A stretch of DNA of 64,000 nucleotides from Arthrobacter ruber. GTDB taxonomy: Bacteria > Actinomycetota > Actinomycetes > Actinomycetales > Micrococcaceae. The notes below the pieces were generated by a model. It did not search any database, was not told the DNA's origin, and saw nothing but the letters and a program-made list of their open reading frames with translations. This document shows positions 46,666-62,122 of this stretch, piece after piece; the first letter of the stretch is position 1, and each line of letters starts with the position of its first letter. Both the position numbers and the translations under genes were made by a program. The stretch is taken from positions 315,114 to 379,113 of the forward strand of contig NZ_PPTH01000016.1 of the NCBI RefSeq assembly GCF_002954225.1, written 5' to 3'.

Positions 46666-47922
46666 TCACAGACCTTTCCGACCGGATCTCCTGACGCCGG
46701 AGATGAGGAGGAGGCCGCCGATGGAGGCGCAGCACAGCATGACGACGGCGGTCGGCACAGGGGAAGACAGCCCGAACATGCCGGAGACAGGAGCAATGAC
46801 GGCCGATCCGGCCATGTTGGATGCTCCGAGGAGGGACGCTGCGGTGCCGGCACGCAGGCCGTGGTGCTCCAGGGCCGTGGCCTGAAGTGCCGGGGACACC
46901 AGTCCGAAGGCGGTCGTGAACGCCATGATCGGCGCGGTCAGGCCCCACAGGCCGAACTCCGGGGCCACGCCGACGCTCAGCAGCAGGATCACCATGGCCG
47001 CCACCAGGGCGACCGCCCCGATGCGGATCACGAGCACGGACGAGGAGCGCCGGGCAATGAAGCCTCCGGCCTGCGCCCCGAGCACCATCAGCGCACCCTG
47101 GGCCCCGAACAGCAGTGCGTAACCCGTAGGGGTCAGCCCGAACACTTCCTGCAGCAGGAAAGCACTGCCCGCCATGTACGACATCATCGCCGCGAACAGG
47201 AATCCTCCGGCCAGCGCGAGGTCGCGGAACTGACGGTCGCCCAGAAGACTGCGGTAGTCGTCACGCACGCGCACACCCTTCCGGAGCAGGCGGCGGTCGG
47301 CAGTGTGGGTCTCATTGCGCAGCAGGATCACCCCTGCGATACAGAGCAGCACCAGACCATAGAGGAGCAGGATCCAGAAGAGCCCTCTCCATCCCACGAC
47401 CTGCAACAGCTGCGCGCCAAGGGCGGGTGAGATCACCACGAACACTCCCGAGGCAATGGCCAACCGTGCCAGGAACACCAGCAACTGCTTGCCGGCATAC
47501 AGGTCCCGGACGATCGCAAGGGCGATGACCGCACACGCCGCCGAGCCCATGCCCTGGAACGCCCGGCTCACGATCAACCACCCGAGGTCAGGGGCGAGGG
47601 CGCACGAGGCTGTCGCGAGGCAGTAGACGACGATCATCACCGAGAGCGGACGGGCCCGTCCGACAGCGTCGGACACCGGTCCTGACGCCAACTGACCGAT
47701 CCCCATACCGATGAAGGCCGCCGTGAGAGTGAGCTGGACGCCGGACTCGGGGGAGCCGAAATCGCGGCGGATCGTAGGAAGGGACGGCAGGTACAGGTCC
47801 ATGGTCAGCGGCCAGATCACCTGGAGCATCACAAGGGCGAGGACGAGAAGAACGACCCGCTGTCGAGGTCCCTTCTGATCGGTTCGGGATGGGTCGGGAA
47901 CCACGTGAGCTGTGTGCTCCAT
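46666..47922 (-). CDS. MFS drug exporter, Bcr/CflA type
   Basis: A 418-residue transporter with about 12 hydrophobic segments. The first helix ends WPLTMDLYLPSLPTI, the Bcr/CflA hallmark. GQLASGPVSDAVGRARPL is the loop 2-3 MFS motif, and GMGSAACAVIALAIVRDLY is the drug:H+ antiporter motif C/B region. ATG 47922 has AGGAGG 8 bases upstream; in-frame sequence further upstream is Arg/Pro-rich and not family-like. Convergent with the VOC gene. Substrate range unknown. Confidence 0.9.
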   Translation of the reverse strand: MEHTAHVVPDPSRTDQKGPRQRVVLLVLALVMLQVIWPLTMDLYLPSLPTIRRDFGSPESGVQLTLTAAFIGMGIGQLASGPVSDAVGRARPLSVMIVVYCLATASCALAPDLGWLIVSRAFQGMGSAACAVIALAIVRDLYAGKQLLVFLARLAIASGVFVVISPALGAQLLQVVGWRGLFWILLLYGLVLLCIAGVILLRNETHTADRRLLRKGVRVRDDYRSLLGDRQFRDLALAGGFLFAAMMSYMAGSAFLLQEVFGLTPTGYALLFGAQGALMVLGAQAGGFIARRSSSVLVIRIGAVALVAAMVILLLSVGVAPEFGLWGLTAPIMAFTTAFGLVSPALQATALEHHGLRAGTAASLLGASNMAGSAVIAPVSGMFGLSSPVPTAVVMLCCASIGGLLLISGVRRSGRKGL

Positions 47923-48138
47923 GCAGCGGGCCTCCTGGATAGCGCTTTCCCTCCATCTAAGTACGGAACGCTGCATCTGGATAGGCCGGAGAAGTCGACT
48001 CGGCGACCTCACGGGTCGCATTGGACGAGCCCGCGGGAGCCCTCGATCCGGCATCATCGGCCGGGGCATGACTATCGACCGGCGCGTGAGCGAGTGCCGG
48101 TGCACATGAAGCTATCGATGCTCGCCATGCCCCCACAT

Positions 48139-49227
48139 CTACACGGAGACTCTCGGCCGGCGGTCCGGGGCCCCCACCGATCCGCGGAGCAGTAGCTCCG
48201 ATTCGAACAGCAGATTCCCAGGCTGCAGCGGACGCCCCAGGATCTGATCGAGCAGCGCAGTTGCCGTCGCTGCCCCGATATCGTAGACGGGTTGGGCGAC
48301 CACCGTGATGGGCGGTTTCATGAGCTGCGCCCACGGCATGTCGTCGTACATCATGAACGACACGTCATCGGGGATCCTCATATCGAGGTCCTGGATGGTG
48401 CGAAGTACATCCAGGGCGATCAGGCTGTCGGACGCGATGATCGCCGTGGCCGGCGACGCGCATTGCAGCAGTTCCTCGACGATCTCGCGGATGGGTTTCG
48501 GCTTACCCGCACTCAGGCGGATCAGATCCTCGGATGTCGGGATGCCGGCAGCACGGAACGCCCTGCGCATGCCGGCCAGACGTTCGGACACAGGGTTGGT
48601 GCCCAGGTCCAGCTCCTCGCCGGGCGACCAGCTCCCGACGTCGAGCGACGAGATGTACCCGATGCGGGTATGTCCGACCTCGATCAGGTGACTCACCGCT
48701 TCGAACGCCGTCCCGTCCATCTTCGCCATGGCGGCACTCACTCCCAGGGCGGGGATCTGGCGGTCGAGCAGCACGAGCGGACGGCCCGATTCGACGACAT
48801 CCCGCAGGTGGTCCACCGACAGTTGCGAAGCAGGCGCCACAATCATGCCGTCGACGCGCTTGTCCAGCAGGACGCGCACGGCTTCCGCTTCTGCGGTGAC
48901 ATCCTCCCCCGTATTGATGAGGATCACGTCGAAACCCTCTGCTTTGGCGGCATCCGAGATGCCCCGCATGGCGAGGCTGAAGAAGGGATTCTCGATGTCT
49001 CCCACCACGACGCCGAGCGTCTTGGACCTGCCGGTATTCATGCTCCGCGCTACTTCGTTCGGACGGTACTCCAGCGCCGCAGCGGCCGCCAGTACCCGGG
49101 AGCGGACCTCATCACTGACAGCACCGTAGGCACCCAGTGCCCGAGCGGCCTGCGCCTTCGACACCTTCGCTTCCCGTGCGACATCTGCGACCGTCGCATC
49201 CTTGCGGCGAGAGGAAGAAGTACTCAT
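48139..49227 (-). CDS. LacI-family regulator of the divergent amino acid-type ABC operon
   Basis: A 362-residue LacI regulator. The helix-turn-helix is ATVADVAREAKVSKAQAARA at 11-30, with the hinge RPNEVARSMNTGRSKTLGVV; the periplasmic-binding-like effector domain ends with PDDVSFMMYDDMPWAQLM and GAATATALLDQILG. ATG 49227 has GAAAGG upstream. The 182-base divergent region carries two copies of a 14-bp near-palindrome. A LacI (sugar-type) sensor paired with an amino acid-type importer suggests a ligand with both sugar and amino acid parts. Confidence 0.9.
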   Translation of the reverse strand: MSTSSSRRKDATVADVAREAKVSKAQAARALGAYGAVSDEVRSRVLAAAAALEYRPNEVARSMNTGRSKTLGVVVGDIENPFFSLAMRGISDAAKAEGFDVILINTGEDVTAEAEAVRVLLDKRVDGMIVAPASQLSVDHLRDVVESGRPLVLLDRQIPALGVSAAMAKMDGTAFEAVSHLIEVGHTRIGYISSLDVGSWSPGEELDLGTNPVSERLAGMRRAFRAAGIPTSEDLIRLSAGKPKPIREIVEELLQCASPATAIIASDSLIALDVLRTIQDLDMRIPDDVSFMMYDDMPWAQLMKPPITVVAQPVYDIGAATATALLDQILGRPLQPGNLLFESELLLRGSVGAPDRRPRVSV

Positions 49228-49292
49228 CGTGACCTTTCCGGAAAGGTTGACCCTCAACGGATCAGTGTGTAGATTCCTCAGCAACCCAAATG

Positions 49293-49331
49293 TGAGTCCG
49301 GTCTCACTCTAACGGATTGAGACCGGACTCA
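49293..49331. promoter_or_regulatory. Paired LacI operators
   Basis: TGAGTCCGGTCTCA (49293-49306) and its exact reverse complement TGAGACCGGACTCA (49318-49331). Each is near-palindromic with a central CCGG, typical of LacI-family sites. Centres are 25 bp apart. They lie between the LacI gene and the binding-protein gene. Confidence 0.7.
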
Positions 49332-49409
49332 ACGAGGGGTTGGCCTTCCTTCTTCCAGCAACTTCCCGGCTGTCCGGCACCGAAGTGCCATCATCGATTG
49401 GACGAACCA

Positions 49410-50282
49410 GTGAACAAAGTCTTCCGCTTCCGCCCCATGGCCACCGCCGCGGCCACCACCCTGGCCGCACTGCTGGTCCTCACGGGATGCGGGTCCTCCC
49501 CTTCGGCATCCCCGGAGGAGAACCCCTATGGCCTGATCGAACCAGGCACCATCCGTGTGGCGAGCCTGGGTGATGCCAAGCCCTACACGTTCACGGATGA
49601 GAGCGGGAACTTCACCGGTTTCGACGTCGAACTGTTCCAGGACGTAGCAGGGCGCATCGGCGTGGACGACGTCGTCTTCACCGGGCAGGATTTCTCCGGC
49701 CTGCTGTCGGCCGTCGCGAACGGGCAGTTCGACGTCGGTGTCGCAGCCATCGGCATCACGGAGGAGCGCAAGCAGACCGTGGAATTCTCGGAGGGCTACC
49801 TCGCCGGCTACCTCACCGTCATCACCACGAAGGACTCAGGCGTGAAGGACGCCGAAAGCCTCGACGGTCACCGGCTGGGCGTCGTGCAGGGGACCTTGCA
49901 GGAGGCGTACGCGGTGAAGAACTTCACCGACACCGACCTCGTCCGCTTCCCGGACAACAACTCGGCCATTGCCGCCGTCAACGGCGGGTCCGTCGATGCC
50001 CACTTCCTCGATTACGAAGCGGCCAAGGACTACACGGAGAAATTCGGCCTGGTCTCGGCTGCGGACATCCCGTCGTTCGATGCTCCGGCAGGGTTCGCTC
50101 TCGCCAAGGGCAACGACGAGTTGAAGACTGCGCTCGACGAGGGTCTGGCCGAGGCGATGGAGGACGGTACATGGAAGGAGCTCTACGAGAAGTGGTTCCC
50201 CGGCTCGCCGATGCCCGAGCAGTACCTGCCGTCCGCCGAACGCACGTCCGAGCCGACTCCCGAACCGACCCCGAGCAACTAG
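49410..50282 (+). CDS. Polar amino acid-type ABC binding lipoprotein (family 3)
   Basis: A 290-residue solute-binding lipoprotein. Lipobox VLTGC (Cys near 27), Ser/Pro linker, then [20 protein letters not shown] and [17 protein letters not shown], the family-3 N-terminal pattern. [20 protein letters not shown] and [17 protein letters not shown] follow. It starts at GTG 49410 (VNKVFRF), giving a normal-length signal peptide. A Pro/Glu/Thr tail ends the protein. Ligand inferred from context to be an Amadori-type amino acid conjugate. Confidence 0.88.
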
Positions 50283-50377
50283 CTCGGGTCTCGTCCACCC
50301 GAGAACCCACTCGGGAACACCCTCCAAGGGGGCCGCAGAGCGGCCCGCACCCCGGCTACAGACACTGAGAGCTAGAC

Positions 50378-51166
50378 ATGGACTTCCTGGACAATCTGAC
50401 CAAGACATTTCTCGACGTCGACGCGATGCTCGCCGTCCTGCCCCAACTGCTGGGCGTCGGCCTGGTCAACACGCTGATCATCTCCGCTGCAGCGACGGTC
50501 ATCGGGGTGGTGCTGGGAATGGTGGTCGCCGTGATGGGCATATCGACATCGCGCTGGCTCCGGATCCCTGCCCGGATCTACACGGACCTGTTCCGGGGGC
50601 TACCCGCCATCCTGACGATCCTGCTCATCGGTCAGGGCTTTGCCAGGATGAGCCAGGAGATCTTCGGGCCCTCGCCGTATCCGCTGGGCATCATCGCTCT
50701 CAGCCTCATCGCCAGCGCCTACATCGGCGAGATCTTCCGCGCCGGCATTCAAAGCGTGGAGAAGGGGCAGCTGGAAGCCTGCCGTGCCCTCGGCATGGGG
50801 TACGGCAAGGCCATGGCGCTGGTCGTCATCCCGCAGGGAGTGCGACGGGTCCTTCCAGCCCTGGTGAACCAGTTCATCGCGATCGTGAAGGACTCCTCCC
50901 TGGTCTACTTCCTGGGCCTCCTGGTCTCCGAACGTGAACTCTTCCGCGTCGGCCAGGACGCAGCGGTACTGACAGGGAACCTCTCGCCCCTGGTGATGGC
51001 GGGAGTCTTCTACCTGATCATCACCGTCCCCCTGACCCACCTGGTCAACTACTTCGATGCCCGCTTCCGCAGCGGACGGCGCCGCCCCACAGCCCCCAGC
51101 AGCGGACTGAACGAAGTCAAAGAACTCGATGCGGTCACGCCGCACATCACAGGGAGCAACACATGA
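50378..51166 (+). CDS. Polar amino acid ABC transporter permease
   Basis: A 262-residue HisM/GlnP-type permease with about five helices. LLGVGLVNTLIISAAATVIG is the characteristic first helix and ACRALGMGYGKAMALVVIPQ the EAA loop. RIYTDLFRGLPAILTILLIG and VKDSSLVYFLGL are family blocks. ATG 50378, 95 bases after the binding protein. Stop overlaps the ATPase ATG. Confidence 0.93.
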   Translation: MDFLDNLTKTFLDVDAMLAVLPQLLGVGLVNTLIISAAATVIGVVLGMVVAVMGISTSRWLRIPARIYTDLFRGLPAILTILLIGQGFARMSQEIFGPSPYPLGIIALSLIASAYIGEIFRAGIQSVEKGQLEACRALGMGYGKAMALVVIPQGVRRVLPALVNQFIAIVKDSSLVYFLGLLVSERELFRVGQDAAVLTGNLSPLVMAGVFYLIITVPLTHLVNYFDARFRSGRRRPTAPSSGLNEVKELDAVTPHITGSNT

Positions 51167-51930
51167 GCACCTCCACGAACACCTCCGCCGATCTCCTCAC
51201 GTTCAGGGGGTCCAGCCTGGAAGTCCGGGACCTCACGATGGCCTTCGGCGACATCAAGGTCCTGCGCGGTGTGAGCCTGTCGATAGCCCCGGGAACCACG
51301 ACCTGCATCATCGGGCCCTCGGGCTCGGGGAAGTCCACCCTGCTCCGCGGCATCAACCGCCTCCATGAACCCGCGGGCGGGGACGTGCTCCTCGATGGAG
51401 AGAGCGCGCTGAACGTCAAACCGGACGTCCTGCGCAGTCGCATCGGCATGGTCTTCCAGCACTTCAACCTCTTCCCCGACCACACCGCACTCGAGAACGT
51501 CGCCCTCGCGCTCTGGAGCGTCAAGGGCATGTCGAAGGCGGAAGCCAGGGAACGCGCCCGACGCCGGCTCGCCGAGGTCGGCCTCGCCGAACGCGCCAAC
51601 CACCGCCCCCGGGACCTCTCCGGAGGCCAGCAGCAACGCGTCGCCATCGCCCGGGCCCTGGCGATGGAACCGGAAGTCATGCTGTTCGACGAAGCCACCT
51701 CCGCACTGGATCCGGAACTCGTCAAGGGCGTCCTGACCCTCATGGCCGGTCTCTGCGAGCGCGGGATGACGATGGCCGTCGTCACCCATGAGATGGGTTT
51801 CGCCCGCAGGGTCGCCGATCAGGTGGTGTTCATGGACGAGGGTGAAGTCATCGAAGCCGGCAAACCCGCCGACCTCTTCGACAACCCCCGGAGCGAGCGC
51901 CTCCGGCGCTTCCTGTCGGAGGTCCTCTGA
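51163..51930 (+). CDS. Polar amino acid ABC transporter ATPase
   Basis: A 255-residue GlnQ/HisP-type ATPase. Walker A GPSGSGKST (near 50), Q-loop FQHFNLFPDHTALENV, signature [16 protein letters not shown], Walker B MLFDEATSALDPEL, H-loop VVTHEMGFARRV. ATGA overlap with the permease and TGATG with the oxidoreductase at 51930, so the four genes are tightly coupled. Confidence 0.94.
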   Translation: MSTSTNTSADLLTFRGSSLEVRDLTMAFGDIKVLRGVSLSIAPGTTTCIIGPSGSGKSTLLRGINRLHEPAGGDVLLDGESALNVKPDVLRSRIGMVFQHFNLFPDHTALENVALALWSVKGMSKAEARERARRRLAEVGLAERANHRPRDLSGGQQQRVAIARALAMEPEVMLFDEATSALDPELVKGVLTLMAGLCERGMTMAVVTHEMGFARRVADQVVFMDEGEVIEAGKPADLFDNPRSERLRRFLSEVL

Positions 51931-52976
51931 TGCGCGATGCCGGCCTCCTCCGCACCGCCGTCCTCGGGTTCGGCGTATCCGGCAAGGTCTTCCACGCCCC
52001 GCTCATCGAGGCGGACCCGGACTACTCACTGGACGTGATCGTCACCGCGAACCCCGCCCGGGCCGGCCTCGCCGCACAGTCCTATCCCGGAGCCCGGATC
52101 ATCGGAACGGCAGAGGAACTGTTCACCGCTCTCGATTCCGGTGAACTGGAACTGGACCTCCTCGTCCTGGGGACACCTCCCGGCACACATGTGGAACTGG
52201 CGAACAAGGCCTTCGACCGCGGGCTGAACGTCGTCGTGGACAAACCCTTCGTACCCACGAGCGCGGAGGGCGAGATCCTCATCGAGCGAGCCGCCGGGGC
52301 CGGGGTGATGCTCACCGTGTTCCAGAACCGTCGCTGGGACGCGGACTACCTGACACTGAAGAAACTGCTCGATGACGGCGCCCTGGGACAGGTCCGGTCC
52401 TTCGAGTCCCGGTTCGAGTGGTGGATGCCCGAGGGCTTCGGCAACTGGCGGGACGAGGCCACCATCGCCGAAGGCGGGGGGATCCTCCACGACCTCGGAG
52501 CACACCTCATCGACCAGGCCATCGAACTCTTCGGCCCCGTTTCCGGGACCTACGGCGAGACCGCAGCGTACACCCCCGGCAGTGGCGCCGACCAGGACAG
52601 CTTCGTGTCGCTGCAGCACCGGTCAGGAGTCCGGTCGCGGCTGTGGATGAACGGTCTTGCAGCACAGGTCGGAGCCCGGTTCCACGTCCTCGGATCCACC
52701 GCCGGATACACCACGTGGGGGCTGGACGGGCAGGAAGCGGCACTGGCATCCGGAATGCTCCCCACCCATGAGAAGTACGGCGTGGAGCCCGACAGCAGGT
52801 GGGGCCTGCTCGGTGTCGACGGCGCGACGGTGCCCGTACCCGCCGAGCGCGGCAGCTACCCCACGTTCTACACCCTGCTTGCCGCAGCGCTGCGCGACGG
52901 GACACCACCCCCGGTCGATCCCGCCCGATCGGTCGCGGTCCTGCGGATCATCGAGAAAATCCACGGCGCCGGCTGA
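51930..52976 (+). CDS. Gfo/Idh/MocA-family oxidoreductase
   Basis: A 348-residue NAD(P)-dependent oxidoreductase. The Rossmann motif AVLGFGVSGKVFHAPLI lies near 10-26 and VVVDKPFVPTSAEGE near 92 is the EKP-type motif. GGGILHDLGAHLIDQAIELF supplies the catalytic region (Asp/His). Members act on sugars, inositols and sugar derivatives. Located between the importer and a candidate Amadori oxidase, it could reduce a dicarbonyl sugar such as glucosone, which is inference only. Confidence 0.88.
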   Translation: MRDAGLLRTAVLGFGVSGKVFHAPLIEADPDYSLDVIVTANPARAGLAAQSYPGARIIGTAEELFTALDSGELELDLLVLGTPPGTHVELANKAFDRGLNVVVDKPFVPTSAEGEILIERAAGAGVMLTVFQNRRWDADYLTLKKLLDDGALGQVRSFESRFEWWMPEGFGNWRDEATIAEGGGILHDLGAHLIDQAIELFGPVSGTYGETAAYTPGSGADQDSFVSLQHRSGVRSRLWMNGLAAQVGARFHVLGSTAGYTTWGLDGQEAALASGMLPTHEKYGVEPDSRWGLLGVDGATVPVPAERGSYPTFYTLLAAALRDGTPPPVDPARSVAVLRIIEKIHGAG

Positions 52977-53009
52977 CCGGCCGACGCCTCCCCAGAAAGA
53001 GAGTTATCC

Positions 53010-54125
53010 ATGACCCCCTCCCCCTCCCGCGTGGCCGTTATCGGCGGCGGCATCCTCGGCGTCTCCGCCGCTGTCCACCTGCTGCGCGGTGGTGCGTCCG
53101 TCGTCCTGGTGACCGAGGCCGAGCTGGCCAGCGGCGCCTCCGGGCGGTCGCTGTCCTGGCTGAACTCCGCAGGCGAACGCACCACCCCGTACCACGAGCT
53201 GCGCGTGGCCGGCATCGACCGGTACCGCACGCTCTTCGCTGCGGACCCGACCCGGGAATGGCTCCACTTCGACGGCGGCCTCCACTGGGCAGCCGACGGT
53301 GAGGACGGCACCACCAGGGACCGCCACGCCTACGAGAAGGCGCACGGTTACGACTCGCGACTGGTCACCCCCGAAACGGTCGGCGACTACACCACGGGCA
53401 TCAATCCGGAGTCCGTCCCCGGCGCGGCCATCTTCAACCCGGGCGAGGGATGGGTCAGCCTGCCGCACCTGATCGAATTCCTCATGGACGAGTTCAAGCA
53501 CCGCGGGGGCGAACTGGTGACCCACGCAGGCAAGACCTCCGTCCAGGTCACGGACGGACAAACCACCGGGGTGACAACCGCGCAGGGCGAGCAGTACCAC
53601 GCCGACACGGTCGTGGTGGCCTGTGGCCCGCAGACCCCCGCCGTGGTCAAGGAACTCGGGGTGGAGATCCCCGACGCCTCACCGGTGTCGATGCTCGTCC
53701 TCACCGAACCGGTAGCCCAGGAGGTGCGACCCGTCATGAACACCCCGCGCGCCGCGCTCCGGCCGAATCCCGGGAACACCCTGGCGCTGGACCATGACTG
53801 GTACGAGGAAAGCATCACCGAGAACGCGGATGGCACCTACACCATCCCGGAATCAGTGGTGCAGCAACTGGCGGACGAAGCCTCCGTGCTGCTCCAGGGA
53901 GAACCGCCGCTGAAGGCTGCCTCGTGGAAGCTCGGTCGCAAGCCGATCCCGGGTGACGGTGAACCCGTCTTCGGAGAGCTGCAGGAAGTCCCCGGGTGCT
54001 TCGTCGCCTTCACCCACTCCGGGGCGACCCTCGGGCTCATCGCAGGCGAACTGCTGGCCGAGGAGATCCTGACCGGACAGAAGCATCCGATGCTCGCGAC
54101 GTTCCGGCCCGAGCGGTTCCACTGA
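53010..54125 (+). CDS. DAO-fold FAD oxidase, candidate fructosyl-amino-acid oxidase
   Basis: A 371-residue flavoprotein. The FAD motif RVAVIGGGILGVSAAVHLL is at the N-terminus, the flavin-contact ELASGASGRSLSWLNSAGER near 45-60, and the end is FVAFTHSGATLGLIAGELLA. Length matches the roughly 370-residue bacterial fructosyl-amino-acid oxidases known from Corynebacterium and Arthrobacter, as I recall. Other DAO members (glycine or sarcosine oxidase, amino acid dehydrogenase) are alternatives. Context favours an Amadori substrate: amino acid-type import, LacI control, a sugar-type reductase and an adjacent fructosamine deglycase cluster. AAGAGAG lies upstream of ATG 53010. A strong terminator follows. 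Confidence 0.75.
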   Translation: MTPSPSRVAVIGGGILGVSAAVHLLRGGASVVLVTEAELASGASGRSLSWLNSAGERTTPYHELRVAGIDRYRTLFAADPTREWLHFDGGLHWAADGEDGTTRDRHAYEKAHGYDSRLVTPETVGDYTTGINPESVPGAAIFNPGEGWVSLPHLIEFLMDEFKHRGGELVTHAGKTSVQVTDGQTTGVTTAQGEQYHADTVVVACGPQTPAVVKELGVEIPDASPVSMLVLTEPVAQEVRPVMNTPRAALRPNPGNTLALDHDWYEESITENADGTYTIPESVVQQLADEASVLLQGEPPLKAASWKLGRKPIPGDGEPVFGELQEVPGCFVAFTHSGATLGLIAGELLAEEILTGQKHPMLATFRPERFH

Positions 54126-54147
54126 CAGAACCTGCTCCGCGCACGAC

Positions 54148-54197
54148 GACGGCCTCCGGGTCGAGGGACCTGCAGCACCCTCGACCCGGAGGCCGTC
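54148..54197 (+). terminator. 20-bp perfect stem terminator hairpin
   Basis: GACGGCCTCCGGGTCGAGGG, a 10-base loop and the exact complement, 23 bases after the FAD oxidase stop. No T-run. It insulates the oxidase operon from the frl-like operon whose promoter follows. Confidence 0.75.
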
Positions 54198-54282
54198 CCG
54201 TCTGTAGGGACAGGAGCATTGCGGTGATCACGGTCGATCGGACGCCCGGTCGGTCGATCCGAGCCGTTTTCTCGCCGACCCG

Positions 54283-54336
54283 TTGACTTCTCCTGCCGAC
54301 CCGGCGAAGATTGAGCGTGATTGATACCGGTATCAA
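54283..54336 (+). promoter_or_regulatory. frlB promoter with LacI operator
   Basis: A -35 box TTGACT (54283-54288), 17-base spacer and -10 box GAAGAT (54306-54311) precede the perfect 16-bp palindrome TTGATACCGGTATCAA (54321-54336), placed at the expected transcription start. The same 14-bp core recurs at 57553, upstream of the binding-protein gene. Confidence 0.65.
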
Positions 54337-54397
54337 CTCGTATCAGTCGTCGCCTCGTAGACGAGAGCGGTTCCCACCAGCAGGAGGAGAAAACGAG

Positions 54398-55396
54398 TTG
54401 CTCGGCTTCAACAAAGAGGAAACCCAGGCCCAGATCAGAAGCGCGATCGCCCTTCGCCCCGAGATCGAGAAAACCGTGGCGTTCATCGAGGAGCGTGGTT
54501 ACGACAACATCTACTTCATCGGCGCCGGCGGCACCTACGCAGCTGTCCTGCCCTACGAGCTCTACTTCCAGGCGTACTCCACCCTCCCGGTGCGTGCGGC
54601 CATCGGCAAGGAGCTGATGCTGGCCCAGGACGCCGCCTTCGGTGAGCGCTCCATCGCCGTCTTCACCTCCATCTCCGGCACCACCGAGGACGTACTCGAA
54701 GCCATCGAGTTCGCCAAGTCCAGGGGCGCCTACACGATCGGTTTCACCGGGTACGACGACAGCCCCTTCGCCCAGGCCGTCGACTGCTCGATCATCTCCG
54801 CACCCAAGACCTGGTTCGATGTCCAGCTCCTGCTGTTCACCACGGGGGTCCTCAGTCGCCGCGGCGAGTTCGACGACTACGAGGCCTTCGCCGACGAACT
54901 CACGAACCTGCCCGACGCGATCGTCGCCGCTGCGGAGCGGGCCGAGCCCATCGCGGAAGCCTTCGCGAGGAAGCACTCCGACACCGACTACTACTTCGTC
55001 GTGGGCGCGGGCAACCTGTGGGGCTACGCCTACCTCTACTCCATGTGCGTGCTCGAGGAGATGCAATGGCTGCGCACCACGCGCGTGCATGGCGCCGAGT
55101 TCTTCCATGGATCGCTCGAGCTCATCGAGAAGGACACGGCACTGCTGCTGTTCAAGGGTGAGGACCAGAGCCGGCCCCTCATGGACCGCGTCGAGAACTT
55201 CGCGGTGAAGTACAGCGACGACGTCACCACCATCGACACGAGGGACTACGCGCTCGAGGGCGTCAGCGAGCGCTTCCGACCCTTCATCGGCCCGATGGTC
55301 ATCGACGCGGTCACGCATCGCTTCAGCAAGCACCTCGAGGCCGTCCGCGGGCACTCGCTCGACCTACGACGCTACTACCGCGTCGTGGAGTACTGA
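54398..55396 (+). CDS. frlB: Fructosamine-6-phosphate deglycase
   Basis: A 332-residue double-SIS-domain protein without a glutaminase domain. It is similar to FrlB, which splits fructoselysine 6-phosphate into glucose 6-phosphate and lysine. The first SIS domain starts NIYFIGAGGTYAAVLPYELY; FTSISGTTEDVLEAIEFAKS is its phosphosugar loop. VHGAEFFHGSLELIEKDTAL corresponds to the FrlB active-site region, and the C-terminus RRYYRVVEY closely resembles that of E. coli FrlB (RRYYGGLVEY, as I recall). The start is TTG 54398 with AGGAGGAG upstream; earlier in-frame codons overlap the operator. First gene of the operon. Confidence 0.85.
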   Translation: MLGFNKEETQAQIRSAIALRPEIEKTVAFIEERGYDNIYFIGAGGTYAAVLPYELYFQAYSTLPVRAAIGKELMLAQDAAFGERSIAVFTSISGTTEDVLEAIEFAKSRGAYTIGFTGYDDSPFAQAVDCSIISAPKTWFDVQLLLFTTGVLSRRGEFDDYEAFADELTNLPDAIVAAAERAEPIAEAFARKHSDTDYYFVVGAGNLWGYAYLYSMCVLEEMQWLRTTRVHGAEFFHGSLELIEKDTALLLFKGEDQSRPLMDRVENFAVKYSDDVTTIDTRDYALEGVSERFRPFIGPMVIDAVTHRFSKHLEAVRGHSLDLRRYYRVVEY

Positions 55397-55454
55397 GTCC
55401 CCAGGAGACGTATCCGGTTGCGGGGCTGGGAACCAGCCCCGCAACCGTTCGATC

Positions 55455-56384
55455 ATGAAAAGAGCAGATGTGAGAGTTGCGGGTTTCGGCGACAACATCG
55501 TCGACCGGTTCATCGACCGCCGGATCATGTATCCCGGTGGCAACTGCGTCAATTTCGCCGTCTACTCCCGACAACTCGGCGTCGACTCCGCCTATCTGGG
55601 CGTGTTCGGAGACGATCACCACGGGCGTTTCGTGCACGGGATCCTGGACAGCCTCGGCATCGACCTGCGCCGCTGCCCGTTCCGGGACGGCCCCAACGGC
55701 GCCACCGATATCGAGGTCGTCGACGGGGAGCGTTTCTTCCGCAGCTGGAACGAAGGCGGCGTGACCGCCAGTGCCCCCTTCCACCTCACGCCCGACGACC
55801 TGGTGTACCTAAGCGGGTTCGACCTCATCCACTCCAGCGTCTTCTCGGCCTCCGTACCGGAGCTACCCGCGCTACGCACCACAGGTGCGCTCGTCTCCTT
55901 CGACTTCTCCGACGACCCGGCGCACCGGACGGACGACTACCTCCACGCCGTCGTACCAGCCATCGATCTTGCGCTCGTGTCCTTCGCCGGCGCAGTCGAG
56001 GCGCAGGTCGAGGACGAGGTGCGACGCATCGCCGCCCATGGCTCACCGCTCGTGCTCGCCACCCGCGGCCCGTACGGCGCCTTACTGTTCGACGGCGAGG
56101 ACTTCCACCGCGTGGGTGCGACCGGCACGGATCCCGGGCGCTTCAAGGACACGATGGGTTGTGGCGACGCCTTCCTCGCCGCGTTCACCCTCTCACTGCT
56201 CCGCTCAGGATGGTCGCGCGCTACTCCTCCGTCGTCCGCCGACATCCGGGACGCTCTCGCCGACGGCTCCCGCTACGCGGCGCTCCAGTGCTACGTCGAA
56301 GGCGCGTTCGCGCACGGACGACGCTTCGACGATGAGGAATACTCGAATCATGAACAGCGTCGAGTGTCCTCAGCCGGAAAATAG
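55455..56384 (+). CDS. frlD: Fructosamine kinase, PfkB family
   Basis: A 309-residue ribokinase-fold kinase similar to FrlD, which phosphorylates the sugar C6 of fructoselysine for FrlB. GFGDNIVDRFIDRRIMYPGG and NCVNFAVYSRQLGVD are the N-terminal block; FSASVPELPALRTTG and VSFDFSDDP parallel E. coli FrlD. The anion-hole/base motif is DTMGCGDAFLAAFTLSL, with Asp as catalytic base. ATG 55455 lacks a clear Shine-Dalgarno; GTG 55470 with AAAAGAG upstream is an alternative. Confidence 0.85.
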   Translation: MKRADVRVAGFGDNIVDRFIDRRIMYPGGNCVNFAVYSRQLGVDSAYLGVFGDDHHGRFVHGILDSLGIDLRRCPFRDGPNGATDIEVVDGERFFRSWNEGGVTASAPFHLTPDDLVYLSGFDLIHSSVFSASVPELPALRTTGALVSFDFSDDPAHRTDDYLHAVVPAIDLALVSFAGAVEAQVEDEVRRIAAHGSPLVLATRGPYGALLFDGEDFHRVGATGTDPGRFKDTMGCGDAFLAAFTLSLLRSGWSRATPPSSADIRDALADGSRYAALQCYVEGAFAHGRRFDDEEYSNHEQRRVSSAGK

Positions 56385-56390
56385 GCGGCG

Positions 56391-57500
56391 ATGACGTCGG
56401 ACCGCCCTCGTCCCACCTCCTCCCCCACGATCTCCGAAGTAGCCGCCGCGGCCGGCGTGGGGCGCGCCACGGTGGCCCGCAGCCTCGGTGGCTACGGATC
56501 GGTGAGTGAACCGACCAGGGCGCACGTACTGGCCGTGGCCGCGCGCCTCGGCTACCGTGCGAACAGCCTTGCGCGCAGCATGACCACGGGGGTCACGAAG
56601 ACCCTCGGCGTCGTGCTCGCCGACATCGCGAATCCGTTCTTCGCCGGCGTCCTGCGGGGCCTCTCCGACACCGCCAAGCAGGAGGGCTACGACCTCCTGG
56701 TACTCAGCACCGATGAGAAGCTCGCCGAGGAACAGGCCGCGGTCGGCCTCCTCCTCGACAAGCAGGTCGACGGACTGGTCATCGCGTCGGCCGCCACTGC
56801 CGGCGACGACCTGAGTCACCTCCTGGCCGCCAGGGAGCGGAACACCCCGCTCGTGCTCATCGACCGGCTGGTGAGCGGCTTCGATGCGGACTCGGTGGTC
56901 ATCAACAACCGGGAGGCGGCGAGGGAGGCCGTCACCACCATGATCGCCGCAGGACACACCCGTATCGGTTTCGTGTGGGGGCCGGTCACGGTGCAACCGG
57001 CAGAGGATCTGGGGACGATGCGCTCGGTCATCGCCGGAGCCCTGTGGAGCGATGGTGAACGACTCAGCGGATACCTCGATGCGCTGCTCGAAGCAGGCAT
57101 CGAGTTCGACACCTCGCTCGTGACCCATGTGCTGAAGACCGAGGGCCAGGCGGCGCGGGCCGTCTCCGGGATGCTCGCCCTCGCACAACCACCGACGGCG
57201 TTCTTCACCACCGAGACCGACGCGACGGTGGGAACCCTACGGGCACTGCGCACCCGCGGACTGCGCTACCCGGACGACGTCTCGCTCCTGGGTTTCGACG
57301 ACACGCCCTGGGCGGCAGTGATGGACCCACCCCTCACGATGGTCGCCCAGCCCATGCAGGAGGTCGGCGCGAGGGCCGCCGAGATCGTCACCGGACGCAT
57401 CAAGGGCGACGATTCCGATGTCGTCCACGACGTCCTTGACGCTCGACTCGTCCAGCGCCACTCCGTGCAGCACCGCGCCGCACGCGTACTGCCTCTCTGA
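56391..57500 (+). CDS. LacI-family regulator of the frl-like operon
   Basis: A 369-residue LacI repressor. The helix-turn-helix is TISEVAAAAGVGRATVARSL near 13-32, the hinge RANSLARSMTTGVTKTLGVV, and the effector domain contains GLVIASAATAGDDLSHLLAA and PDDVSLLGFDDTPWAAVMDP. It is six bases behind frlD in the same operon, and both promoters carry TGATACCGGTATCA, so autoregulation and control of the transporter are likely. It is paralogous in layout to the regulator at 48139 but faces a different operator. Confidence 0.9.
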   Translation: MTSDRPRPTSSPTISEVAAAAGVGRATVARSLGGYGSVSEPTRAHVLAVAARLGYRANSLARSMTTGVTKTLGVVLADIANPFFAGVLRGLSDTAKQEGYDLLVLSTDEKLAEEQAAVGLLLDKQVDGLVIASAATAGDDLSHLLAARERNTPLVLIDRLVSGFDADSVVINNREAAREAVTTMIAAGHTRIGFVWGPVTVQPAEDLGTMRSVIAGALWSDGERLSGYLDALLEAGIEFDTSLVTHVLKTEGQAARAVSGMLALAQPPTAFFTTETDATVGTLRALRTRGLRYPDDVSLLGFDDTPWAAVMDPPLTMVAQPMQEVGARAAEIVTGRIKGDDSDVVHDVLDARLVQRHSVQHRAARVLPL

Positions 57501-57551
57501 CTCAGAAATCTCGCTGAAGGACTAGGCAGGGTCCTCTCTCCTTGCTATCGT

Positions 57552-57581
57552 CTGATACCGGTATCAACTTTGATACCCGGC
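57552..57581. promoter_or_regulatory. LacI operator upstream of the CUT1 transporter genes
   Basis: TGATACCGGTATCA (57553-57566), identical to the core of the frlB operator, followed by the half-site TTGATACCCGG (57570-57580). It lies in the 143-base gap between the LacI gene and the binding-protein gene. Confidence 0.68.
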
Positions 57582-57643
57582 ACCACTTCTGATCCAACGG
57601 CGGGTCTGCGCTGCAGCTGGCCGTACCAGCGAAAGAGAGAACG

Positions 57644-58960
57644 ATGCTGAAAGTCAGGCAGATCGGATTGGCTGCGGTTGCTGCCATGGCCGTCACCCTC
57701 ACGGGCTGCGGGTCGTCAGCTCCGCAGGAGACAGCGGACCTCGCGGCCGAGCCCGAGTACTCGGGCACGCTGAGCATCCTCACCAAGTTCGGAGGTGAAC
57801 CCCTCGAGAGCTACTTCTCCGACCTCGCCTCCGAATACATGCAGATGCACCCGGATGTGCAGTTCGAGCTCATCCAGGAGACCGACCAGAGCATCAAGGA
57901 CAAGACCAAGACGCTCACCGCGTCCCAGGCGCTCCCCGACATCTACTTCACCTGGGCCGGTGACTGGGCAGCCAACTTCGTCGACGCCGGACTGGCTGCC
58001 GACCTCACCCCGGTCATCGAGCCGGGTACCGAGTGGGGCGACACATTCGGCGAGGCCTCCCTGAGCGCATTCCAGTACGACGGCAAGTACTACGCCGTGC
58101 CGCTCTACAACAACGGCAAGTTCATGGGCTACAACGAGAAGATCTTCACCGAGCTCGGCATCGAGCCTCCCACCGGTTTCGACGAGCTCATCAGCGCGTG
58201 CGGCACCATCCGGGACGCCGGGTACGAACCCATCGCCTTCGGGAACAAGGACGGCTGGCCGGCACTGCACTACCTCCAGCAGCTGTTCGCCTACAACGTC
58301 CCGCAGGACACGCTGCAGGCCGATTTCGACCCGGAGACAGCTACCTGGGAGGACGAGGGTTACATCAGGTCACTCGAGCAGTTCTCCACCCTCGTGACGG
58401 AGTGCACAGGCTCGGGCGCCGATTCGAACGGCGTCCTCTACACCACCGCCCAGCAGGCGCTCGCCGAAGGGCGTGCCGCCATGTACTACCAGGAGATCCT
58501 CGAGTTCGACACCTCGGCCGCAGAAGGCACACCCCTCAGCAAGGACGGCTTCGGGATCTTCCCCCTGCCCGTCCCGGCAGGCGCGAAGGGCGATCCTGGC
58601 GCCATCGAGGGCTCACCCGAGGGATACATCATCAACGCCCGCTCGGAACGGGCCGCCCTGGCGGCCGACTTCATGGAGTTCGTCACCGAATCGGCGAACG
58701 CCTCGACGCTCTCCGCACCCCCCTACGGCCAGCCCAGCGCCGTGGTAGGCGCGGTCACCGCTGACAGCTCGAGCCCGAGCGTCGTGAAGGGCATCGAAAT
58801 GGTCAATGACGCGTCCTCCACCGTCATCTGGCTCGACTCCGTGACCGTCCCCGACGTCGCCGACGCATGGCTGGCCGGTGGCGAGGCCCTCATCAGCGGT
58901 GACAGCACCCCCGAGGAGATCCTCTCCAGTGTCCAGGCCGCATCCGAAGCCTCCAAGTGA
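57644..58960 (+). CDS. frlO: CUT1 carbohydrate-type binding lipoprotein (FrlO-like)
   Basis: A 438-residue family-1 solute-binding lipoprotein. Lipobox VTLTGC (Cys near 24); GTLSILTKFGGEPLESYFSD and SQALPDIYFTWAGDWAANFV are typical, and KYYAVPLYNNGKFMGYNEKI marks the ligand-contact region. It sits in an operon with two CUT1 permeases and near FrlB/FrlD homologues, resembling the Bacillus subtilis frlBONMD set in which FrlO is the binding protein. The symbol is by context and similarity of arrangement. Confidence 0.83.
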   Translation: MLKVRQIGLAAVAAMAVTLTGCGSSAPQETADLAAEPEYSGTLSILTKFGGEPLESYFSDLASEYMQMHPDVQFELIQETDQSIKDKTKTLTASQALPDIYFTWAGDWAANFVDAGLAADLTPVIEPGTEWGDTFGEASLSAFQYDGKYYAVPLYNNGKFMGYNEKIFTELGIEPPTGFDELISACGTIRDAGYEPIAFGNKDGWPALHYLQQLFAYNVPQDTLQADFDPETATWEDEGYIRSLEQFSTLVTECTGSGADSNGVLYTTAQQALAEGRAAMYYQEILEFDTSAAEGTPLSKDGFGIFPLPVPAGAKGDPGAIEGSPEGYIINARSERAALAADFMEFVTESANASTLSAPPYGQPSAVVGAVTADSSSPSVVKGIEMVNDASSTVIWLDSVTVPDVADAWLAGGEALISGDSTPEEILSSVQAASEASK

Positions 58961-58966
58961 CCGATC

Positions 58967-59941
58967 GTGACCACCAATGAACTGACGCGGGGGCCCGTGC
59001 TGCCGGCCCCCGCGTCGGGGTACCGCTCACGGCCCGCGAAGAAGCGCCGACCCGGCACCTCCAGGATCAGCTCGCTGCGCGCACTCGTCTGGGTACTGCC
59101 CGCCGTGCTGATGCTCGCGGTCTTCGTCTACCTGCCCCTCGCGCAGAACTTCGGTTTCAGCGTCCTCGAATGGGACATCTACACCGGCAGCCAGAGTTTC
59201 ATCGGCGCGGAGAACTACCGGAAGATGTTCGCCGACCCCGTCTTCTGGCACGCCCTGGCCAACAACGCCTGGTACTCGGTGATCTCGATCCTGTTCCAGG
59301 TGTGCGGCGCCCTCGTTCTCGCAGCTCTCGTCGAGGGACTGCGCCACGACCGCTGGAAGCAGATCTTCAGGGTCCTCTACTTCATCCCGTCGGCCATCTC
59401 GCTGACCGTCGCAGGGCTCCTGTTCTACTTCATCTACGAACCGGAACTGGGGCTCCTCAACGCAGGCCTCGAGCGCCTCGGGCTGGGGGATCTGACCCAG
59501 TCATGGCTCGGCCAGGAGAACACGGCGATCTTCGCGATCATCGCCATGAGCCAGTGGCAGGGCTTCGGCTACTGCACGCTGCTGTTCGCCGTCGCCCTGC
59601 AGCGGATCCCCTCCGAGCTCTACGAGGCCGCCTCCATCGACGGAGTGGGTCCCGTCCGCCGCTTCTTCTCGGTCTCCCTCCCCCTGGTCCGGGAGATGAC
59701 AGGCCTGATGATGATCGTCACGGTCTCGGGCGCCTTCCAGGTGTTCAACGAGGTCATGGTCATGACCACCGGAGGACCCAACAACTCGAGCCAGGTCCTC
59801 GGCACGTGGCTCTACCGCAGCGGGTTCGTCCGCAACGATTTCGGCTACGCCGCCGCGATCGCCACGGCGATCTTCTTCATCACCCTGTCGCTCGCACTGC
59901 TGCAGCTCTGGATCTCCCGCAAACGAAGGGTGGAATGGTGA
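58967..59941 (+). CDS. frlN: CUT1 ABC transporter permease (FrlN-like)
   Basis: A 324-residue permease with six helices (MalF/UgpA type). The cytoplasmic N-tail is basic (RSRPAKKRRPGTSR). YLPLAQNFGFSVLEWDIYTG opens the first periplasmic region and YEAASIDGVGPVRRFFSVSL is the EAA motif. GTG start just after the binding protein. Overlaps the next permease by 7 bases. Confidence 0.87.
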   Translation: MTTNELTRGPVLPAPASGYRSRPAKKRRPGTSRISSLRALVWVLPAVLMLAVFVYLPLAQNFGFSVLEWDIYTGSQSFIGAENYRKMFADPVFWHALANNAWYSVISILFQVCGALVLAALVEGLRHDRWKQIFRVLYFIPSAISLTVAGLLFYFIYEPELGLLNAGLERLGLGDLTQSWLGQENTAIFAIIAMSQWQGFGYCTLLFAVALQRIPSELYEAASIDGVGPVRRFFSVSLPLVREMTGLMMIVTVSGAFQVFNEVMVMTTGGPNNSSQVLGTWLYRSGFVRNDFGYAAAIATAIFFITLSLALLQLWISRKRRVEW

Positions 59942-60771
59942 AACGCAGCACCGCACTAGGAGTCATCGGCTCGACGTTCGTCTGGGCCTTTTTGCTCGCC
60001 CTCGCCGTCGTCGTCATCTACCCGCTGCTGTGGATGACCCTCAACGGCTTCAAGACCAACGCCGAACTGTTCGGCAACCCGTTCGCGCTGCCTGTGGAGT
60101 TGCGCTGGGAGAACTATGCGAACGCCTGGAACAGGGGTGTGGGCAATTACCTCATGGTGAGCGTGCTCGTCACCGTCACCTCGACCATCGCCACGGTCTT
60201 CATCGGGGCATGGGCGGCCTACGGACTGACGAGGATCAAGATCCCGTTCAGTCGCACGTTCCTCATCGTCATCCTCGCCGGCCTGATGCTGGCACCCACC
60301 GTGGCTCTCATCCCGCTGGTGCGCATGTTCCAGGCCCTGGGCCTCTACAACACGTTCTGGGCACTGCTGATCCTGTACACCGCGTTCCGTATCCCCTTCA
60401 CCGTCTTCCTGATCCGCGCGTACATGATGGATCTCCCCGTGCAGATCGACGAGGCGGCAGCGGTCGACGGCGCGTCGCGGGCCCGCGCGTTCTGGCAGAT
60501 CATCCTGCCGATGTGCAAGCCGATCATCGTCTCGACCGTGATCCTCAACATCCTCTTCACCTGGAACGAGTACCTGTTCGCCATGGTGTTCACCAGCGGC
60601 GGCGACTTCCAGACACTGCCCGTGGGACTCACCAACCTGATGGCCAAACACGGCACGGACTACCCGGTCGTGTTCGCGGGCATGGTCATGGCCGCGCTGC
60701 CCATGGTCGTGCTGTTCATCGCCGGCCAACGGTACTTCATCCGTGGGCTGGCGGACGGGATCGGGAAATGA
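59935..60771 (+). CDS. frlM: CUT1 ABC transporter permease (FrlM-like)
   Basis: A 278-residue permease (MalG/UgpE type), six helices. VVIYPLLWMTLNGFKTNAEL and LPVELRWENYANAW are typical; the EAA loop is DEAAAVDGASRARAFWQIIL. ATG 59935 has GAAGGGTGG upstream; GTG 59938 (GTGA overlap) is an alternative. No ATPase gene accompanies the two permeases, so a shared MsmX/MsiK-type ATPase encoded elsewhere is expected. Confidence 0.88.
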   Translation: MVKRSTALGVIGSTFVWAFLLALAVVVIYPLLWMTLNGFKTNAELFGNPFALPVELRWENYANAWNRGVGNYLMVSVLVTVTSTIATVFIGAWAAYGLTRIKIPFSRTFLIVILAGLMLAPTVALIPLVRMFQALGLYNTFWALLILYTAFRIPFTVFLIRAYMMDLPVQIDEAAAVDGASRARAFWQIILPMCKPIIVSTVILNILFTWNEYLFAMVFTSGGDFQTLPVGLTNLMAKHGTDYPVVFAGMVMAALPMVVLFIAGQRYFIRGLADGIGK

Positions 60772-61622
60772 CGACCTCCCCCGCCACCGGACTGTGCCGC
60801 GACCAGATCAACGGATCGAACTTCTCGTACCAGCACCAGTCCTTCGGACGCTTTCTGGACGACATGGTGGAGCTCGGACTGCACACCCTCGAACTGTGGG
60901 GCATCGCGCCGCACCTTCACATCCCCACCGTCACCGAGGAACAGCTCCGGGACATGGGTCGCTCACTCCGGCAACGCGAGCTGTCGGTCTGCTGTGTGAC
61001 ACCCGAACAGGTCGCGTACCCGGTCAACATCGCCTCCCCCGACGACGGGTTGCGCGAGGCCAGCGTCGCGATGTTCCTGCGGGCCGCCGAGGTCTGCAGC
61101 ACCCTCGGAGCGCCACTGCTGTTCCTCACGTCGGGGCGAGGGGCCGAGGACGAACCGCGCGAGGCGGGCTGGGAACGCGCCATGACGAGCCTGCAGAGCA
61201 TCACGGCCCGCGCGGCGGAGCTGGGCGTGGACTGTGTGCTCGAGCCGTTGCAGCGCGTCGAGTCCAATCTCGTCACGACGTCCTCGCAGGCCGCCGCGAT
61301 GCTCGCGGACGTCGGGACGCCCGGACTCGGTGTCGCCCTCGACACGGTGGCCATGAACATGGCCGGCGAGACAGTCGCCGACTACTTCCGCGCGCTTCCG
61401 GACCTGATCCATCACGTCCACCTGACCGACGGGGCGCCGGCGGGCCACCTCGCGTGGGGCGACGGGAAGATCGACCTCGAGGGAGTGGTCCGCGACCTCG
61501 GCAGGGCGGGCTACCGGGGGAGGATCACCTTCGAGATCTTCGGCGACGGGACGTACGCCTTCAACCCGAGGCCCTCTCTGGAGCAGTCGCTGCGACACTT
61601 CGAACGGGCGATTCGTTCCTAG
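60768..61622 (+). CDS. frlC: Sugar epimerase/isomerase, FrlC-like TIM barrel
   Basis: A 284-residue AP-endonuclease-2 family TIM barrel. VDCVLEPLQRVESNLVTTSS (catalytic Glu, and the ESN motif shared with FrlC), VALDTVAMNMAGETVADYFR, HHVHLTDGAPAGH and ITFEIFG (second catalytic Glu) are visible in order. E. coli FrlC epimerises psicoselysine to fructoselysine at C3; the role here would be feeding other ketosamines into the FrlD/FrlB route. ATGA overlap with the permease gene. Assignment to FrlC rather than another epimerase rests on context plus the ESN/LEPL similarity. Confidence 0.75.
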   Translation: MTTSPATGLCRDQINGSNFSYQHQSFGRFLDDMVELGLHTLELWGIAPHLHIPTVTEEQLRDMGRSLRQRELSVCCVTPEQVAYPVNIASPDDGLREASVAMFLRAAEVCSTLGAPLLFLTSGRGAEDEPREAGWERAMTSLQSITARAAELGVDCVLEPLQRVESNLVTTSSQAAAMLADVGTPGLGVALDTVAMNMAGETVADYFRALPDLIHHVHLTDGAPAGHLAWGDGKIDLEGVVRDLGRAGYRGRITFEIFGDGTYAFNPRPSLEQSLRHFERAIRS

Positions 61623-61726: not shown

Positions 61727-62122
61727 TCAGCGGGGCAGCCGCAGTGCCACCGGCCCCTTCGCCGTCGACGGGTCGACGACGACCCCGCGCTGCACCATCT
61801 CCGCGAGGCCACGGCTGACGAGGCGGCGGGCAGCGCTGCGCGCCGGTTCGTGCAGAAGGGCAGCATCGTCCGCGAGCGCGGTGGCGGCGTCGGCGGGGTC
61901 GACGACGGATCCTCGCGGTGCAGCACGCAGCCGCGTGAGGAGCCACTCCTCGAGGGCGGTGTCGATGGGCCGTATCTTCCGCGCACGGCAGGAGTCGCTG
62001 CAGTAGGTGATCGACTCCCAGTTCCGCTCCCACTTCTTCCGCCATTCGATGCGCCGACCGCAGGAGCGACAGGTCTTCGGTTCCTGTGCCCCCGTCCCCG
62101 CCGATGTCGGAGGCCGTCTCAC
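61727..62122 (-). CDS. DUF2256 plus DUF3253 protein
   Basis: A 131-residue protein. The N-terminal zinc-ribbon-like DUF2256 segment reads [20 protein letters not shown] then [12 protein letters not shown] (four cysteines). It is followed by a winged-helix-like DUF3253 domain: [20 protein letters not shown], ending [12 protein letters not shown]. The fusion occurs in other bacteria. GTG 62122 overlaps the stop of the DUF1206 gene (GTGA). Function unknown; DNA or protein binding is plausible from the folds. Confidence 0.8.

Follow-up and report, generated by a model that had tools for sequence, protein, structure and literature searches.

Amadori compounds are described as common in decaying plant material (PMC4992315), and their breakdown as the work of either an oxidase or a kinase together with a deglycase (PMC9609667). 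On plasmid pAtC58 of Agrobacterium fabrum, socR and socABCD, for deoxyfructosyl-glutamine, are reported next to repABC (PMC4231840), and Arthrobacter isolates from tobacco root and soil that carried soc genes are reported to have degraded santhopine (Shimasaki et al. 2021, PMC8262997). Deglycase systems are represented by the frl genes of Bacillus subtilis (frlBONMD, FrlR and FrlP) and Escherichia coli (frlABCD and frlR) and by Salmonella Gfr, for which uptake with phosphorylation through a phosphotransferase system (PTS) is reported (PMC12735817). In B. subtilis, fructosevaline uptake is reported to require FrlONM, with FrlP and MsmX interchangeable as the ATPase (PMC12632257). Here we describe a locus in a 64,000-nucleotide stretch of Arthrobacter ruber DNA (contig NZ_PPTH01000016.1, positions 315,114 to 379,113; hereafter the window), in which two adjacent operons, one of the soc and one of the frl type, are probably held together as Amadori-catabolic systems, each with an inducer of its own.

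The first of these operons shares with pAtC58 soc the divergent LacI gene, the order of the genes for an amino acid-type importer, a Gfo/Idh protein and a flavin adenine dinucleotide (FAD)-dependent oxidase, and the same palindrome. It differs in that SocB, fused in pAtC58, is encoded by two genes, that its Gfo/Idh protein is of another subgroup (27% identity) and that an frl operon stands beside it. The 2021 report likewise found soc genes in Arthrobacter, the genus to which the closest named relative of the window belongs. The second operon has the deglycase and the 6-kinase in common with both frl systems, a FrlONM-type importer with B. subtilis and a FrlC-type epimerase with E. coli. Unlike either, it contains an internal gene for a LacI-type repressor and has the order frlB-frlD-lacI-frlO-frlN-frlM-frlC, and its FrlB, FrlC and FrlD are only 27-31% identical to the E. 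coli counterparts. The closest solved relatives of its SIS protein are the Salmonella-type deglycases (2a3n/8glr); where Gfr relies on a PTS, the window has an ATP-binding cassette (ABC) importer and a PfkB kinase.

Identity of the two operons

All thirteen genes that a preliminary description had placed between positions 48139 and 61622 of the window are open frames where it put them, and their domain matches (LacI, SBP_bac_3, BPD_transp_1, ABC_tran, GFO_IDH_MocA, DAO, SIS, PfkB, SBP_bac_1 and AP_endonuc_2) agree with the families it named. Operon 1 (48139-54125) consists of a LacI gene and, divergent from it, genes for a binding protein, a permease, an ATPase, a Gfo/Idh/MocA oxidoreductase and a DAO-type oxidase. 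Operon 2 (54398-61622) encodes SIS, PfkB and LacI proteins, a binding protein, two permeases and a TIM barrel, and has no ATPase gene.

Judged by sequence, operon 1 is a soc operon, that is, a fructosyl-glutamine (santhopine) system like that of pAtC58. Pairwise identity to the pAtC58 proteins is 48% for SocR, 63% for SocA, 72/73% for SocB and 51.5% over 367 residues for SocD, and homology of SocA, SocB and SocD extends over nearly their full length. The order socR / socA-socB-socC-socD with a divergent LacI gene matches as well. The pAtC58 match of the oxidase adjoins repC, where soc has been placed (PMC4231840), and lies inside a five-gene set of identical order. The best PDB match of SocA is 5l9o/5lom, 'Deoxyfructosyl-amino Acid Transporter Periplasmic Binding Protein' (E 1.3e-106), and SocD was reportedly called a homologue of a Corynebacterium amadoriase by Baek et al. 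in 2003. Among the best 25 of 31 NCBIfam families, the oxidase scores 66 bits for ThiO (cut-off 251), 28 for the sarcosine-type amino oxidase (480) and 43 for D-amino acid dehydrogenase (383); these low scores and the similarity to SocD led us to reject its classification as a glycine, sarcosine or D-amino acid oxidase.

The Gfo/Idh protein aligns with pAtC58 SocC at 26.5% identity over 196 residues (E 2e-12), which places the two in one superfamily and in different subgroups. It is 55% identical to Klebsiella and Pantoea copies, and 28 of the 30 socR loci inspected have a protein of the window type (match of at least 48%), the exceptions being pAtC58 and genome G486. In the latter (locus L117), positions 6873-7025 form the interval between the ATPase and oxidase genes of a soc operon devoid of a Gfo/Idh gene. 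A tblastn search of plasmids with the 371-residue oxidase returned 364 records at E <= 1e-5, including 125 from Rhizobium, 81 from Agrobacterium, 69 from Pantoea and 22 from Klebsiella; 36 matches have 60-80% identity, and the weakest among the matches listed 26-32%. The six-gene form of soc also occurs on plasmids of Arthrobacter dokdonellae, Klebsiella michiganensis and Pantoea soli.

Operon 2 is identified, by the same type of comparison, as a fructosamine-6-phosphate deglycase (frl-type) operon. The best NCBIfam family is FrlB for the SIS protein (104.5 bits, cut-off 430; next GlmS, 57), FrlD for the PfkB protein (158 bits, cut-off 247; next fructokinase, 52) and FrlC, fructoselysine 3-epimerase, for the TIM barrel (120 bits, cut-off 305; next 69). 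Thus, the three appear to be kin to FrlB, FrlD and FrlC and of the same kind, yet other than the E. coli-type enzymes. In the PDB, the SIS protein matches best, over its full length, 2a3n/8glr (E about 1e-71), which we take to be Salmonella GfrF, followed by 3eua, a putative fructose-amino acid-6-phosphate deglycase. Its Glu221 and His237, invariant in 24 aligned sequences, align with Glu224/His240 of E. coli FrlB, presumably the catalytic pair; the literature passages searched for FraB/FrlB catalytic residue numbers did not contain them. The epimerase seems to be optional, since in Arthrobacter sp. SX1312, which of all named organisms among the loci found stands closest to the window (positions 48143-60771, 94.8% DNA identity), identity ends at the end of frlM (after position 16374 of locus L082) and the 4.6 kb examined beyond it contain no frlC match.

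Predicted operators and repressors

Operon 1 carries TGAGWCCGGWCTCA twice in the gap separating socR from the divergent importer gene, and operon 2 carries TGATACCGGTATCA before frlB and again before frlO (Table 1). An exact search of the 3.66-Mb genome found each pattern only at its two places, all in this locus, and a backwards-read control pattern gave no match in the same genome. We inspected 35 SocD loci, five of which have no socR match and stand outside the operator count (L062, L122, L124, L132 and L133). The TGAGWCCGGWCTCA palindrome lies upstream of socR in 29 of the 30 others, including pAtC58, Pantoea and Klebsiella; L131, the sole exception, carries AGAGACCGGTCTCA. Upstream of both frlB and frlO, TGRTACCGGTAYCA is present in 21/21 frl loci. 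The patterns were derived from the same loci that were later counted, which makes 29/30 and 21/21 descriptive; independent evidence comes from the absence of further exact copies from the genome and of either pattern from the other operon (0/30 and 0/21). In view of this lack of cross-occurrence, shared regulation through one operator was rejected.

The main difference between the predicted operators, TGAGACCGGTCTCA for soc and TGATACCGGTATCA for frl, is a single base in each half-site, TGAGACC for SocR versus TGATACC for the second LacI protein. The recognition helix reads VSK in 27/30 SocR proteins and VGR in 21/21 second LacI proteins, and each repressor would bind its own pattern. Apart from itself, SocR matches nine proteins of the genome at E <= 1e-20; the LacI protein of operon 2 is the closest (39%, 220 bits), the next having 29% and 110 bits. 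A quick IQ-TREE phylogeny of 59 proteins (30 SocR, 21 second LacI and eight further LacI sequences) separates these three groups with Shimodaira-Hasegawa-like approximate likelihood ratio (SH-aLRT) support of 98-99; the eight outsiders, being the remaining SocR matches, all come from the window's genome, and several of them sit on long branches. By similarity and tree, SocR and the operon 2 repressor are sister paralogues.

Co-occurrence and linkage in related genomes

Because a search of genome contigs with the SIS protein gave only six loci, linkage was assessed in two overlapping samples, one at family level (197 genomes) and one at order level (396 genomes), both searched for the SIS and DAO proteins. 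A strong FrlB match was defined by E <= 1e-120 (the next best values were 1e-72 in the order and 1e-47 in the family; weaker SIS matches were not counted) and linkage by 10 kb (linked gaps span 0.2-7.1 kb, the next being 22 kb), both limits having been chosen after the data were seen. Strong FrlB is present in 18 distinct genomes, 15 of which also have SocD; none was found in G136 and G116 at E <= 1e-40 or in G390 at E <= 1e-60. In eight of the 15 (G000, G143, G099, G031, G076, G486, G550 and G566), soc and frl lie within 10 kb of each other. With shared ancestry ignored throughout, SocD occurs in 12/14 strong-FrlB genomes of the family sample versus 34/197 overall (hypergeometric 8e-9) and in 9/10 versus 32/396 in the order sample (4e-10), and the eight linked genomes compare with 0.08 expected under random placement.

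The linked operons come in four arrangements. In arrangement A (G000, SX1312 and G143), soc is followed by a colinear frlB, and in B (G099, and G031 with socD only) by a convergent lacI-frlD-frlB block; in C (G076 and G486), frl lies on the socR side, and in E (G550 and G566), soc is followed by the frlC end. Beside its frl cluster, G031 has a lone socD preceded by an intact soc palindrome (L062, 7705-8882); SocA is absent from this genome (best match 39%), as is any SocR match at E <= 1e-45 except the second LacI protein.

The frlB clades put to the approximately unbiased (AU) test were defined by genus and by arrangement, although a FastTree was already in view, a practice that the test's guidance cautions against. 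Within the window's genus, SocD of G000, SX1312, G099 and G031 forms one clade (97/90), and frlB of these together with G116 does not (p-AU 1.8e-89). For G143 and G076, from one other genus, frlB is likewise not one clade (p-AU 1.3e-8), the SocD grouping being weak (65/64), and neither arrangement A nor arrangement C is a clade in frlB (p-AU 2.8e-6 and 0.002). The window's frlB is nearest to that of SX1312 (98%) and then to that of Herbiconiux (88%). If the linked genomes are taken alone, one origin each suffices for A, B and E on the frlB tree and C needs two; unlinked genomes are interspersed among them, and an old linkage with later losses is possible. Two histories would produce this pattern, repeated encounters between the operons or the replacement or inversion of an frl cassette at a fixed site, and both would require something that keeps the operons together.

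Exchange of importer and enzyme modules

All four combinations of the two importers and the two enzyme modules are found among relatives. Usually, the soc importer accompanies SocC/SocD and FrlONM accompanies FrlB/FrlD. In G079, G182 and G507, a FrlONM-like importer (35-52%) is combined with SocR, SocC, SocD and the soc palindrome. Conversely, a hybrid operon of G099 (L157, 6357-12079) joins the soc importer (SocA 78%, SocB 96-97%) to FrlD-like (30%) and FrlB-like (31%) enzymes under a third SocR-like repressor of its own and a third palindrome, TTGGGTCCGGACCCAA. Matches to its deglycase (E <= 1e-50) occur in 3/197 family genomes, G099 included, and in G109 a homologue adjoins a soc operon.

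Other neighbourhoods were noted along the way. On a Klebsiella michiganensis resistance plasmid (NZ_OM938015.1, L031, 1-10092), soc adjoins a second amino acid-type importer accompanied by an FrlC-like TIM barrel (44%) and a drug/metabolite transporter (DMT), possibly another Amadori-type module. In Niallia and Neobacillus (L085 and L086), FrlB relatives (41-42%) are accompanied by FrlC-like genes as well as by an importer of the amino acid type; the deglycase route of Bacillales may also pair with such importers.

Features of the locus

Between the operons lies a hairpin with a 20-bp stem (54148-54167/54178-54197); the 116 nucleotides that hold it (54115-54230) have a predicted folding energy of -70 kcal/mol (z -6.5). 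No T-run is present at the hairpin, a possible terminator of operon 1. The soc operon is bordered by genes for a major facilitator superfamily (MFS) transporter (46666-48105) and a glyoxalase-fold protein (46210-46602), and downstream of operon 2 a DUF1206 protein is encoded at 62119-62961.

Table 1. Predicted features of the soc and frl-type operons, in window coordinates
Feature	Position	Strand	Basis or remark
SocR, LacI-family repressor of operon 1	48139..49227	-	likely ATG start 49227; LacI and periplasmic-binding-like Pfam domains
Predicted SocR operator copy 1, TGAGTCCGGTCTCA	49293..49306	.	palindrome pattern
Predicted SocR operator copy 2, TGAGACCGGACTCA	49318..49331	.	palindrome pattern
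SocA, putative deoxyfructosyl-amino acid binding protein	49437..50282	+	likely start 49437 (ATG) or 49410 (GTG)
SocB permease half, own gene	50378..51166	+	72% to N-terminal half of pAtC58 SocB
SocB ATPase half	51163..51930	+	73% to C-terminal half of pAtC58 SocB; ABC_tran
Gfo/Idh/MocA oxidoreductase at SocC position, YvaA-like subgroup	51930..52976	+	PDB matches 3fhl, 3gfg
SocD, predicted FAD-dependent fructosyl-amino acid oxidase (amadoriase), 371 residues	53010..54125	+	DAO, E 1e-44
Hairpin between operons, possible operon 1 terminator	54148..54197	.	fold
Predicted operator of second LacI, TGATACCGGTATCA, upstream of frlB	54322..54335	.	pattern
FrlB-type fructosamine-6-phosphate deglycase (SIS)	54398..55396	+	likely TTG start 54398 after AGGAGG
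FrlD-type fructosamine 6-kinase (PfkB)	55455..56384	+	best NCBIfam FrlD
Second LacI repressor, SocR sister paralogue	56391..57500	+	genome search and tree
Predicted operator of second LacI, TGATACCGGTATCA, upstream of frlO	57553..57566	.	pattern
FrlO-like sugar-type binding protein	57644..58960	+	SBP_bac_1; syntenic in frl loci
FrlN-like permease	58967..59941	+	BPD_transp_1
FrlM-like permease	59938..60771	+	BPD_transp_1; likely start 59938 or 59935
FrlC-like epimerase (TIM barrel), optional part	60768..61622	+	likely start 60768; best NCBIfam fructoselysine 3-epimerase

Discussion

Gene identities, gene order, conserved operator-like palindromes, recurrent linkage and module swaps, as read from the sequences, point to a pair of Amadori-catabolic operons, and their family memberships suggest how these might work. 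Import of fructosyl-glutamine-type conjugates would be the task of SocA and of the permease and ATPase of SocB; SocD, if it acts like its family, would oxidize these conjugates with oxygen to the amino acid, glucosone and hydrogen peroxide. The Gfo/Idh enzyme would most likely perform a redox step on the freed sugar linked to nicotinamide adenine dinucleotide (phosphate), and a function as glucosone reductase is plausible. That Agrobacterium and the window have different Gfo/Idh subgroups in the corresponding position suggests that a sugar redox step is needed, although G486 does without the gene. The sugar-type importer of operon 2, with an ATPase from elsewhere, would take in fructosamines; FrlD would phosphorylate them at C6, FrlB, again by analogy with its family, would split the product into glucose 6-phosphate and the amino acid, and epimers at C3 may be salvaged by FrlC. 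Through their slightly different operators, the two LacI paralogues would give each operon a separate inducer. Having both operons may widen the range of Amadori compounds used, or may divide their breakdown between an oxygen-consuming and an ATP-consuming route.

A number of observations weigh against this picture. In 7/15 genomes with both systems, they are at least 22 kb apart or on different contigs: 22 kb in G150, about 96-180 kb in G086, G157 and G063, 2 Mb in G079, and separate contigs in G109 and G048. Most SocD genomes (22/34 in the family, 23/32 in the order) have no strong FrlB, so soc does not depend on frl, and the frl loci of Herbiconiux and Planobispora have no soc gene within 10 kb, bar a 34% ATPase match in Planobispora. 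The co-occurrence and linkage statistics take no account of shared ancestry. As for the proteins, the Gfo/Idh gene was rejected as a SocC orthologue on account of its low identity to the Agrobacterium protein, and it is missing from the G486 soc operon. The PDB profile of SocD ranks 7fgp ('Glycine/D-amino acid oxidase') and glycine oxidases above the fungal fructosyl amino acid/peptide oxidases, which are thus not its closest solved relatives; a literature search on what 7fgp is found nothing. The SIS, PfkB and TIM barrel proteins stay well below the NCBIfam equivalog cut-offs for the E. coli-type enzymes, and the functions given here to the proteins of the two operons are predictions from sequence.

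It is conceivable, but in our view doubtful, that both operons serve the same compounds under different conditions, the oxidase working when oxygen is plentiful and the kinase/deglycase route when oxygen is short or hydrogen peroxide and glucosone are to be avoided. The Soc importer with FrlD/FrlB-like enzymes in G099, the FrlONM-like importer with SocC/SocD in G079, G182 and G507, and the sister relationship of the repressors would all fit such a choice, which is harder to reconcile with operator patterns that never occur upstream at the other operon. Somewhat less probable, and unlikely on the whole, is that the operons handle different Amadori compounds, are adjacent only through the clustering of catabolic operons and have nothing in common but a shared niche. 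In favour of this explanation, importer, repressor and operator are separate for the two operons, seven of the 15 pairs are not within 10 kb, and strong FrlB is missing from the majority of SocD genomes; however, eight linked pairs in four arrangements, where about 0.08 would be expected at random, and importer-enzyme swaps in both directions, which point to one substrate class, are difficult to account for in this way. That operon 1 serves ordinary amino or imino acids, by oxidation of glycine, sarcosine or D-amino acids, is highly improbable, despite the DAO fold and nearest solved chains named glycine oxidase, in view of the similarity of SocD, SocA, SocB and SocR, the gene order, the palindrome and NCBIfam scores far under the ThiO, SoxA and D-amino acid dehydrogenase cut-offs.

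We therefore return to two Amadori operons held together, each with its own inducer. The broader proposition that soc and frl of Micrococcales make up one modular dual-chemistry Amadori system, with repressors that arose from one duplication and diverged by an operator change centred on a single base of each half-site, exchange of modules in all four combinations and selected, repeated joining, we consider evenly balanced.

Much of what the preliminary description had proposed agrees with these results: adjacent oxidase-type and deglycase-type Amadori operons and separate regulation (each predicted operator has no exact copy outside its own operon). Neither outcome that it had named as refuting occurred at the sequence level: the oxidase stands apart from the NCBIfam glycine, sarcosine-type and D-amino acid enzymes, and the SIS/PfkB pair has FrlB and FrlD as best NCBIfam matches, albeit under the cut-offs. 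It was mistaken in treating the oxidative operon as an unrecognised assembly. This is a soc operon, known in Agrobacterium, and because soc and santhopine breakdown in Arthrobacter were published in 2021, the oxidative half is not new (PMC8262997). Its suggestion that the combination is undescribed holds for the pairing: the best matches of the open-licence literature searches included no report of soc next to a deglycase operon, and the main text of the Arthrobacter report (PMC8262997) contains neither 'frl' nor 'deglycase' as a whole word and mentions no deglycase operon. As far as the searched literature goes, then, it is the pairing of soc with frl that seems new.

In this pairing, both chemistries of Amadori breakdown would be kept together under sister repressors with near-identical operators. 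The division of labour between them and the evolution of repressor specificity thereby become directly testable in a culturable soil genus. The locus also points to candidate bacterial fructosyl-amino acid oxidases and deglycases, enzyme types useful in glycation assays.

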